Assembly (NCBI GenBank): GCA_013178295.1
Contig: JABLWW010000001.1
Coordinates: forward strand, 248,001 to 312,000
Source of the DNA: Anaerolineae bacterium
GTDB taxonomy: Bacteria > Chloroflexota > Anaerolineae > Anaerolineales > Anaerolineaceae
Reading direction: 5' to 3'
DNA: 64,000 nt
The notes below the pieces were generated by a model. It saw only the letters and a program-made list of their open reading frames with translations, did not search any database and was not told the origin of the DNA. The position numbers and the translations under genes were made by a program. This document shows, one piece after another, positions 6,200 to 50,422 of this stretch. How positions within the stretch are numbered: position 1 is the first letter of the stretch; every line of letters starts with the position of its first letter.

Positions 6200-6676
6200 A
6201 TGGGTTTTTTGATTGATGGTCATAACGTGATTGCAATGATCCCAGGGCTAAGCCTGAAAATGATGGATGACGAACAGGAATTGATCGCTCTGCTGCAAGT
6301 TTTCTGCCGCGTGCGCCGCAAAACCGCTGAGGTGTATTTTGATGGTGCCCCGCCAGGATATGCAGGCAAACGCAAGTTTGGCGCAGTCTCCGCGTTCTTT
6401 GTACCGCAAGGGGTCACAGCGGATGCGGCGTTGCTCTCCAGAATGCGGGAACTGCGCGGTAGGGGGGAAAGCTGGACGGTTGTTTCTTCAGATCGCAGCA
6501 TACAGGCTGAAGCGCGTGTTCTGAGGCATACAGTGATGGATTCCGGGCAGTTTGTAAAGGCCCTGCAGCAAGCTGCTTATGAGGTTACGACGCCAGAGAG
6601 GAAAGGAAAGCAAGCGTTAAGCGGGGAGGAAGTTGAAGAATGGCTACGTCTATTTGGCGTGAGAGAGGAAGAATAA
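6200..6676 (+). CDS. NYN domain (PIN-like) RNA-binding/nuclease protein
   Basis: A 158-residue PIN-fold protein of the NYN/YacP type. The acidic start (FLIDGHNVIAMIPG, residues 3-16) contains the first catalytic Asp. Further conserved positions are YFDGAPPG (about 46-53), TADAALLSRMREL (about 74-86) and VVSSDRSIQAEAR (about 94-106), which supplies the typical SSD acidic motif. Related proteins (YacP/Rae1) cut mRNA on ribosomes or process RNA. The gene is divergent from the dnaX operon and has its own promoter. Start and stop are clear. Confidence 0.88.
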   Translation: MGFLIDGHNVIAMIPGLSLKMMDDEQELIALLQVFCRVRRKTAEVYFDGAPPGYAGKRKFGAVSAFFVPQGVTADAALLSRMRELRGRGESWTVVSSDRSIQAEARVLRHTVMDSGQFVKALQQAAYEVTTPERKGKQALSGEEVEEWLRLFGVREEE

Positions 6677-6769
6677 ACATACCTAATAAAACCCAATAAC
6701 TCTTAATTATTTTTAATACATTTCTGATAAAAAAGGTGTATATTGTCAATAGGACACCAGAATATTATT

Positions 6770-6890
6770 GGTACAAACGGGTGTCGCTCACCGAAAATCT
6801 TTTTCGGGTTTCCCCTCCCACCCGAAGAGAGATTAGGTGAAATTCCTCCTTGACGATCGCCAGGCACTAACACCTGGCGATCGGCTTTTT
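6770..6890 (+). ncRNA. Candidate structured small RNA with C-rich loop and exposed anti-SD sequence
   Basis: The gap between the NYN gene and ftsZ holds a three-tier hairpin: TCACC (6788-6792) with GGTGA (6836-6840), AATCT (6796-6800) with AGATT (6830-6834), and TTCGGGT (6803-6809) with ACCCGAA (6820-6826). Its 10-base apical loop reads TTCCCCTCCC. The linker before the terminator contains TCCTCCTT (6844-6851), a perfect complement of a strong ribosome-binding site. A long-stem intrinsic terminator ends the unit. An imperfect promoter (TTGTCA 6743-6748, 14-base spacer, TATTAT 6763-6768) lies upstream. It could instead be the structured 3' UTR of the NYN message. No known RNA family was recognised. 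Confidence 0.45.
6854..6889 (+). terminator. Strong intrinsic terminator
   Basis: Perfect 11-base-pair stem (6854-6864 with 6873-6883), 8-base loop, followed by GCTTTTT on the plus strand. On the minus strand no T-run follows, so it terminates plus-strand transcripts (NYN gene or the RNA candidate), not ftsZ. Confidence 0.9.
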
Positions 6891-7035
6891 ATGGCGGATT
6901 GAGTAGAGGAAAAATATCAAGAAATAGAGAGTTTAAATGCAAACCATACCCCCTATAAGCTCCCTGCATGGAGAACGGGTGCGGCTTGCAACAGCATGAC
7001 GTTGTGCACTCGCCAGTGAAGCGAGTGGCAGAATG

Positions 7036-8271
7036 TTACTGTGTTCTTTGGCTATGACTGCGCAAGAGGTCTTGAATGTTGAGATCCTCTGTTCTTGCGG
7101 TTGGGTTGATTTCGGCGTGCATCTGACTCTGGCGGCGGTGGCGCAAGAAAGCGGGGATATCCAGGTCTTCCGTATTGACGCGGCGTTGGAAATCGGTTGA
7201 TGTGGTTTGCGAGCGTGGGGCAGGGGGCTGTTCTCGCTCGACCTGGCGCGTGCGTTGGACATTGGCGGCTGGCTCCACCCGTGTTGACCTTTCACCCATC
7301 ATGGAGCGCATTCCGGTATGATCAAAGCCGGTGGCAATGACAGTTACACGGATTTCGTCGCCCATGTTGGGATCAATGACGGCGCCGAAAATTAAGTTCA
7401 CATCCGGATGAGCGGTCTCTTTGATAATGGCAGCTGCCTGGTTGACCTCAAACAACGTTAGACTTGAGCCGCCTGTCACGTTGAAGAGAATACCCCTTGC
7501 ACCGTCAATGGTGATATCCAGGAGTTGGCTGGAAATTGCCATTTCGGCTGCAACGCGTGCCCGGTCTTCGCCCGAAGCTTTTCCAACTGCCATCAGGGCG
7601 GCACCACCCTCGGACATAATCGTGCGGACATCTGCAAAGTCGAGGTTGATCAAGCCGGGGATCGTAATTAATTCCGAGATGCCTTGTATACCTTGCCGCA
7701 GGACATCGTCTGCCACTTTAAAGGCTTCTACCAGACTGGCGCGTTTGTCAACAATTTGCAGCAGGCGGTCGTTGGGGATGACAATCAGGGTATGGGCATG
7801 TTCCTTGAGTTTTGCAATGCCGCCCTCTGCCGCTTGCATACGACGGGCACCTTCAAAGGTAAACGGGCGCGTTACCACACCGATTGTCAATGCACCAACG
7901 TCTTTGGCAATCTGGGCGACAATAGGGGCGGCACCTGTGCCGGTTCCCCCACCCAGCCCTGCCGTAACAAAGACCATGTCTGACCCTTTGAGGACTTCGT
8001 AGAGTTCGTCAGCCGATTCTTCGGCCGCTTTTTGACCCATTTCTGGGTTACCGCCTGCGCCTAGCCCGCGCGTGCTCTTATCGCCAATGCGGACTCGCGT
8101 GGAGGCTTTGGACATCAAGAGCGCCTGGGCATCTGTGTTCACAGTCACAAATTCGATGCCCTGTAGCCCTTCCTCGATCATGCGGTTGACGGCATTGCAT
8201 CCGCCTCCGCCGACGCCCACAACTTTTATGCGGGCAAACGATTCTGCTTGGGGTTGTGTAATATTTTCCAT
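7036..8271 (-). CDS. ftsZ: Cell division protein FtsZ
   Basis: Tubulin-like GTPase that forms the division ring. The nucleotide-binding start ([15 protein letters not shown], about 17-31), the tubulin signature GGGTGTGAA (107-115) and the T7/synergy region ([11 protein letters not shown]) are intact. After a short linker, the canonical C-terminal peptide [11 protein letters not shown] (367-377) appears and is followed 27 residues later by a second related copy, [11 protein letters not shown] (394-404), before the end at 411. A GAGGAG ribosome-binding site precedes the ATG. It is the last gene of the dcw operon, 55 bases after ftsA. No clear intrinsic terminator follows on this strand; a 7-bp hairpin at 7007-7027 lacks a T-run. 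Confidence 0.98.
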
Positions 8272-50135: not shown

Positions 50136-50422
50136 AGATGACAAATGCAGTGATGGAAACGAGTAGGTTTTGGCGTGCTGTCAGCAAGCCCGGGTGTTGA
50201 TGTGAGCCGGGTCAGTAATCGAAACCGAAAATCCTTCCGGAGCAGCGACCTGAACCCATGTTTGTGGCAGTAAGTGAGCCGGGAAAAGCCGCCCGTTACC
50301 CTGGCAGCGATTCGCAAGGATAATTGCCGATCGTAAAGAGTGCTTGCCATTTTGGCAGGAATGTGGGTGGTACCACGGGAGACTTTGCTCTCGTCCCTGA
50401 GAATGGACGGGAGCTTTTGTTT
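50136..50422 (+). promoter_or_regulatory. Isoleucine T-box leader
   Basis: T-box leaders bind uncharged tRNA and control downstream aminoacylation genes. The conserved T-box sequence AATGTGGGTGGTACCACGGG is at 50360-50379. At the 5' end the specifier region can be built by hand: GGAA (50155-50158) with TTCC (50235-50238) below; AGTA (50162-50165) opposite GAA (50227-50229) as the loop-E element; GGTTT (50166-50170) with AAACC (50222-50226) above. The codon that falls in the specifier position is ATC (50231-50233), isoleucine, matching ileS downstream. The terminator at its end indicates transcriptional control. Confidence 0.92.
50387..50422 (+). terminator. T-box regulated terminator
   Basis: Ten-base-pair stem (50387-50396 with 50405-50414, one G-U pair in RNA), 8-base loop, then TTTTGTTT. 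It competes with the antiterminator formed by the T-box sequence just upstream. Confidence 0.85.

Follow-up and report, generated by a model that had tools for sequence, protein, structure and literature searches.

A conserved C-rich small RNA family of the Anaerolineales, usually found behind a YacP-type NYN gene

The structure at 6752-6892 belongs to a conserved small-RNA family, which as far as seen is confined to the Anaerolineales, little-studied bacteria of the Chloroflexota, and their kin. Judged from the sequence, it is apparently a non-coding RNA of about 140 nt with its own transcription, ending at a terminator, and its conserved parts follow one another in the order promoter-like block, 5' hairpin GACACC...GGTGTC, second hairpin, linker and terminator. 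With a probability of about two in three we read it as an independently transcribed small RNA whose C-rich segments would pair with Shine-Dalgarno (SD) regions and block the start of translation. The structure, the exposure of the C-rich segments and the character of the RNA as a unit are supported, and pairing with SD regions is suggested by LhrC and alpha-r14/NfeR1, which have the same layout. The features discussed below are numbered by position in the window, i.e. the whole 64-kb stretch of DNA that was analysed:

6200..6676, + strand: gene for a YacP-type NYN domain protein, upstream neighbour (Pfam PF05991, 36.9 bits, cut-off 24.6)
6701..6717, + strand: direct repeat TCTTA (6701-6705) and TTTAAT (6712-6717), 11 bp apart (consensus of 34 members)
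6739..6744, + strand: probable -10 element TATATT within GGTGTATATT (consensus of 34 members)
6752..6892, + strand: small RNA, limits of the covariance model; inferred start at about 6750-6753
6753..6785, + strand: 5' hairpin, GACACC (6753-6758) pairing with GGTGTC (6780-6785)
6788..6840, + strand: second hairpin, three-tier, 53 bases, outer stem TCACC (6788-6792) with GGTGA (6836-6840)
6812..6819, + strand: C-rich loop CCCCUCCC, unpaired probability 1.00; CCCCCCC in most relatives
6843..6853, + strand: C-rich linker UUCCUCCUUGA; its CCUCCUU also occurs at the 16S rRNA 3' end
6854..6890, + strand: intrinsic terminator, 11-bp stem (6854-6883) followed by the T run GCTTTTTATG

Extent, fold and covariation of the RNA

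A three-tier 53-base hairpin with a C-rich loop, a linker and an 11-bp terminator had been described in an earlier note on this DNA, and all of these were found in place. The range given there, 6770-6890, holds hairpin, linker and terminator but is too short: position 6770 is not the start, as it falls within the loop of an extra 5' hairpin belonging to the conserved RNA. The first third of the RNA was thereby missed (5' hairpin, 6753-6785), together with the conserved promoter-like block at 6701-6744, which lies upstream of that range. Folding of 6765-6895 gave -47.7 kcal/mol compared to -32.5 (sd 3.4) in 200 shuffles (z -4.46; 0/200 as good), and a large share of this strength comes from the terminator.

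A blast of the window stretch against 60 relatives and its own genome (E up to 1) hit 44 of the 61 genomes, largely as noise; the informative hits were three behind NYN homologues (L003, L004, L012). Thirteen copies were then picked by eye: the window, these three loci and nine from a scan of 29 further NYN loci, of which twenty were left out because the motif pattern was absent or unclear. A plain MAFFT alignment of ten sequences (A1) was dropped, as the 5' stem was misaligned; alignment A2 comprised seven of the thirteen copies, with loops N-padded to hold the register. The first covariance model (R1) was seeded with seven relatives from the thirteen copies, the window being excluded, and gave one single match across the 64-kb window, 6752-6892 on the + strand (70.7 bits; E 2.1e-18, E-values of these models being rough). 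Model R2, built from 34 members with the window in the seed, gave 87.8 bits for the window. These 34 members are the window, 29 panel loci and four loci reached via NYN, and seven of them were seeds of the first model.

Among the 34 members, 31 of the 35 pairs change on both sides, compared to 16.4 in shuffles, and 94.9% of the cells are paired (79.9% in shuffles); none of 500 shuffles reached any of five measures and sliding the partners destroyed the signal, the test being not fully independent because the rows were aligned to a model with an author-drawn structure and are biased towards it. Both-sided changes were seen in four of the six pairs of the 5' hairpin (99.5% of cells paired), in all 14 pairs of helices 2 and 3, which make up the second hairpin, and in 13 of the 15 pairs of helix 4, the terminator. 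A second set consisted of 68 of the 84 members found by a sequence pattern (see below); L106 and fifteen members close to those already in the first set were excluded. Here both-sided changes were seen in 26 of 35 pairs (all 15 of the terminator and 11 of the second hairpin) and 94.8% of cells are paired, again with 0/500 shuffles; helix 1 is invariant in this set because the search pattern fixed it. In some relatives (L012, L035) the single-sequence minimum-energy fold lacks the consensus 5' part.

A competing 4-bp hairpin (6780-6783 with 6789-6792) had also been proposed. In it the 3' arm of the 5' hairpin would capture the 5' arm of the outer stem, and such a competition is possible, but this is not the conserved fold, because each arm has its own covarying partner. 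The complementarity of GGUG in the former arm to CACC in the latter (6780-6792) occurs in many relatives as well, so that the two hairpins might conceivably refold as a switch. A short form of about 95 nt was observed in one family of the order (L085, L087-L094), in which the C7 hairpin seems to double as the terminator and CCCUCCC is shifted to the 5' loop.

Distribution and exposed C-rich segments

In the panel of relatives, model R1 matched 37 of 61 genomes at E up to 0.01, the window's own included, namely 28 of the 37 genomes from the family of the window and 9 of the 24 from other families of the order. Model R2 was run against larger panels, whose counts are lower bounds because the stricter filters lose weak matches: at least 25 of 400 genomes sampled over the phylum matched, all 25 from the order of the window, and within this order at least 131 of 301 genomes, the window's own included, in 59 of 113 genera. 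A single match was obtained for 125 of the 131 genomes, and two or three for the other six, with weak extras (30-39 bits). When one genome per species of bacteria and archaea was scanned with the pattern TGTATATT-N4-10-GACACC-N14-32-GGTGTC, 107 stretches were found, and the model matched 84 of them (79/100 and 5/7). By record title all 84 are Chloroflexota, 52 with the class Anaerolineae and 32 with no class given; of the other 23 stretches none is assigned to Chloroflexota and two have no phylum. Named carriers include Bellilinea caldifistulae and Thermanaerothrix daxensis. The earlier note had called for such a covariance search among relatives and had named unconserved stems or C-rich motifs as grounds for giving up the idea; the search recovered a family within one order in which the stems covary and the C-rich segments are kept, and the finding survived.

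The loop of the second hairpin reads UUCCCCUCCC (6810-6819), of which CCCCTCCC (6812-6819) has an unpaired probability of 1.00, and a run of at least five C was detected in this region in 99 of 108 members. The linker, described earlier as carrying TCCTCCTT, the complement of a ribosome-binding site, does so, and TTCCTCCTT at 6843-6851 is unpaired with a probability of 0.96. In relatives, linkers with UUCCCUCCCUGA (25/108) or ACCUCCUU[A/G]G (5/108) were observed, the latter resembling the 16S rRNA 3' end. This end was taken from a relative (G030; GGATCACCTCCTTTCT, i.e. ...GATCACCTCCTTTCT) because no 16S rRNA was found in the window's own assembly (G000), which is rated 97.8% complete; a missing 16S rRNA is common for metagenome bins. 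The terminator loop of the window, CACTAACA, is not C-rich, in contrast to that of most close relatives, which often combine a UUCCCUCCCUGA linker with C7 in both the hairpin loop and the terminator loop. In other families CCCUCCC is located in the 5' loop beside UUUAYUGGUA. Altogether, two or more C-rich segments (C7, CCCUCCC or CCUCCUU) are present in 103 of 108 distinct members, in the 5' loop, hairpin loop, linker or terminator loop. Their mean unpaired probability is 0.79, compared to 0.46 when every C of these RNAs is counted and 0.58 for runs of C in shuffled sequences, with the linker CCCUCCC ranging from only 0.34 to 0.99 across the twenty members shown. By these computed pairing probabilities the family has the unpaired anti-SD segments that characterize SD-pairing small RNAs. 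The segments are relocated among positions of the scaffold yet kept, and a motif that is kept while its scaffold changes suggests that the motif is the working part.

A small reading frame ending in Pro-Pro-stop, hinted at by CCTCCCTGA, was considered as a shared product of these sequences and rejected. In 29 sequences the frame is anywhere between 4 and 57 codons long, and a GTG is absent from the window and from the linkers of other families; it stands five codons before the stop in 24 of the 29, but within the GGUGG arm of the outer stem. No reading frame common to the whole family was found, with the GTG in 24 of 29 sequences as a caveat.

The 5' loop carries a further conserved motif, UUAUUGGUA at 6765-6773. 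UUAYYGGUA was detected in this loop in 95 of 108 members and is about as conserved as the C-rich segments. The motif is nearly self-complementary with wobble pairs and may serve as a kissing dimer, a protein site or a second seed. Of the 118 copies present before removal of duplicates, 84 were found by the pattern requiring TGTATATT and the 5' stem, so that member counts for these two features are not independent. In a comparison of the 5' loop with a 4.5-kb stretch bearing 16S rRNA, the longest exact complements were 6 nt for UUUACUGGUAU and UUUAUUGGUAU and 9 nt for CCCUCCCUUUUACUGG, which is unremarkable.

CsrB titrates a protein through GGA loops, and near-identical loops on variable stems, as observed here, suit a decoy for an RNA-binding protein, titrated by repeated unpaired C-rich loops, as well as they suit a pairing seed. 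Such a decoy might also account for UUAYYGGUA, which has no known pairing partner. We nevertheless consider it unlikely, as the C-rich segments vary in their exact letters and in their setting (loop or linker), and a few copy the 16S anti-SD; both are better explained by base pairing.

The NYN gene and the promoter block

The protein encoded directly upstream matches the YacP-type family PF05991, which we take to be the family of Rae1, and gave no NCBIfam and no PDB sequence match. YacP of B. subtilis is Rae1, a ribosome-associated nuclease, and the NYN product is a probable RNA-cutting enzyme. As to context and INDEPENDENCE, 80 of 84 family loci have an NYN gene immediately before the RNA and in its orientation, mostly 58-116 nt away, and the linkage is kept across families; only 32 loci have the most frequent downstream gene cluster near the RNA. 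The four exceptions are two loci near the end of the available stretch (L147, L131) and two with no NYN gene at that place (L109 from T. daxensis, and L148).

Between NYN and the RNA, alignment of 34 members on the best TATATT-like hexamer revealed TCTTA at -38 to -34 (68-91% per base), TTTAAT at -27 to -22 (85-91%) and GGTG immediately before the hexamer (56-88%), the conservation of the hexamer, unlike that of its flanks, being given by construction. No sigma-70-type -35 hexamer was seen at normal spacing, and the site was not picked up by a generic promoter scan. With half-sites separated by one helical turn, the block is reminiscent of binding sites for OmpR-type activators, such as those of the CiaR-driven csRNAs; going by the shape of the motif, an activator may bind the repeats, which are 11 bp apart and would stand in for the usual -35 element, and so switch transcription. 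In five of six genomes the exact block pattern occurs only at the RNA locus, and in the sixth (G020) nowhere. A regulon search with the block in these six genomes gave four further one-mismatch sites compared to six in the control, i.e. chance level, so it is from the shape of the motif that the idea of a response regulator is drawn. Comparison across members shows a conserved promoter-like block before the RNA and a conserved terminator at its end, from which a start and an end of its own are predicted.

The earlier note had offered as an alternative that the element is the 3' UTR of the NYN message, i.e. a structured end with terminator that protects or regulates this mRNA, with no separate transcript. 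The close linkage fits this view, and no terminator-like site was found between NYN and the RNA, so that transcription of NYN probably still runs on into the RNA. As the whole story, a 3' UTR is improbable in our view, given the conserved -10 element and repeat block between the two and given that a terminator does not need C-rich loops. Moreover, the RNA occurs about 8 kb from NYN in one genome (G030) and with NYN on another contig in a second (G022), and it is present in two genomes in which no NYN gene was found at E up to 1e-6 (G005 and G028, assemblies 87 and 88% complete). The promoter block accompanies the RNA in G005, G030 and G022, and is weaker in G028. Conversely, ten NYN loci chosen for lacking the RNA had no RNA with filters off (best 4.7 bits) and no match to TTTAATG or GTATAWT. 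Since RNA and block occur away from NYN, and NYN occurs with neither of them, RNA and block seem to come and go as a unit and the RNA is more than a 3' UTR.

That the RNA is foremost a partner of the YacP-type nuclease, as its substrate, guide or regulator, would explain the linkage in 80 of 84 loci against 32 for the commonest downstream cluster and would suit a relative of a ribosome-associated nuclease, yet it is very doubtful, as RNA and NYN each occur without the other.

Predicted action and relation to known RNAs

Returning to an independently transcribed RNA that pairs with SD regions, the C-rich segments left unpaired would serve as redundant seeds: loop CCCCUCCC and linker CCUCCUU in the window, joined in relatives by the terminator or 5' loop. 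A restricted group of mRNAs would be bound by these seeds at their G-rich SD regions, and the start of translation would be blocked. Of the trans-acting translational regulator proposed earlier, the conserved RNA with exposed C-rich segments is supported, while pairing with SD regions is still deduced and no recurring target emerged. Target prediction against ribosome-binding sites, which the earlier note had called for, was done in a coarse form. For 55 ORFs of the window, complementarity to the two C-rich segments was no higher in the ribosome-binding regions than inside the coding sequence (one-sided P 0.72 and 0.47, with crude starts). In six genomes 39 TCAGGGAGG-ATG sites were counted compared to 10 in a reversed-pattern control; 30 of the 39 were read and 21 with a frame over 50 aa were compared (one site counted twice), and no gene recurs among the loci compared. 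AAAAGGGAGG-ATG sites were not above control in eight genomes (8 compared to 9), and the RNA locus itself accounts for two of the 8. Only 3 of the 55 window ORFs have GGAGG upstream, therefore a general anti-SD action looks unlikely, and the RNA more plausibly regulates selectively than globally. A bolder version, in which RNA and NYN/YacP form a unit under a dedicated promoter, the RNA marking mRNAs at the ribosome-binding site and the nuclease destroying them, is a long shot; if true, the marking RNA would normally be one per genome, with a promoter not found elsewhere in the genomes searched.

Rfam 15 gave nothing over the RNA of the window at gathering score, and at E up to 10 only the sub-threshold matches ar14 (21.8 bits), sroB (19.2), GlsR4 (12.6) and KCNQ1OT1_1 (3.7); in eight loci carrying other members, no family matched the RNA at E up to 1. 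In Firmicutes, RsaE and further RNAs of the UCCC-loop type have C-rich loops said to pair with SD sequences, and none of them matched in the Rfam scans of the window and the eight loci. Rfam contains an LhrC family, and no LhrC match was detected at E up to 10 for 6650-7050 of the window or at E up to 1 for the eight loci.

According to the available part of the source, LhrC of Listeria monocytogenes pairs at the SD region through three redundant C/U-rich sites, namely a hairpin loop, a single-stranded stretch and the terminator loop (PMC4132741). Many close relatives of the window have three C/U-rich sites in this arrangement, and the window has two of the three, its terminator loop being CACTAACA. 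LhrC differs by CUCCC with U runs instead of C7 and CCCUCCC, by five copies instead of one match in 125 of 131 genomes, and by its phylum, and it lacks the extra 5' hairpin. The NfeR1/alpha-r14 'cuckoo' RNAs (RF02344), as far as the accessible text of PMC10746234 describes them, repress by redundant-motif pairing with SD regions, with CCUCCUCCC repeated in unpaired regions of three hairpins. On the same partial account they resemble our RNA in that an ultraconserved anti-SD motif occupies unpaired parts of several hairpins whose stems vary. However, the window scored 21.8 bits against a gathering threshold of 58.8 for RF02344, the eight loci with other members gave no match at E up to 1, CCUCCUCCC is not exactly shared in the window, and hairpin set and promoter are different. 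In the window one loop carries CCCCUCCC and one linker CCUCCUU; relatives mostly have C7 and CCCUCCC. For the streptococcal csRNAs of the CiaR regulon, the accessible portion of PMC3091779 gives NTTAAG-N5-TTTAAG, 10 nt before the -10 element. The likeness to what is given there lies in the anti-SD segments and in TTAA-type direct repeats 11 bp apart before the promoter; here, in contrast, the repeat is TCTTA-N6-TTTAAT, 21 nt before the -10 element, and so not a CiaR site.

No base-pairing small RNA of Chloroflexota and no description of such an RNA was found in the open-access literature; together with the lack of a matching Rfam 15 family this agrees with the earlier suggestion that the RNA is undescribed in this lineage. 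The available part of PMC2864571 reports Chloroflexi-1 and pan RNAs, both with Rfam numbers and neither matching here, and the available part of PMC11109978 does not name the phylum. The RNA was therefore filed as a new family of the C-rich anti-SD kind and not as a member of LhrC, alpha-r14 or the csRNAs. It appears to be one more example of the C-rich anti-SD design of Firmicutes and Alphaproteobacteria, with no common descent detected. Being widespread in its order, usually single-copy and structurally unmistakable, it would give the phylum a tractable riboregulator, and its linkage to NYN and distinctive promoter make the silenced targets and the switch testable questions.

Elsewhere in the window, a T-box leader was detected at 50141-50401 on the + strand (97.1 bits; gathering score 93).
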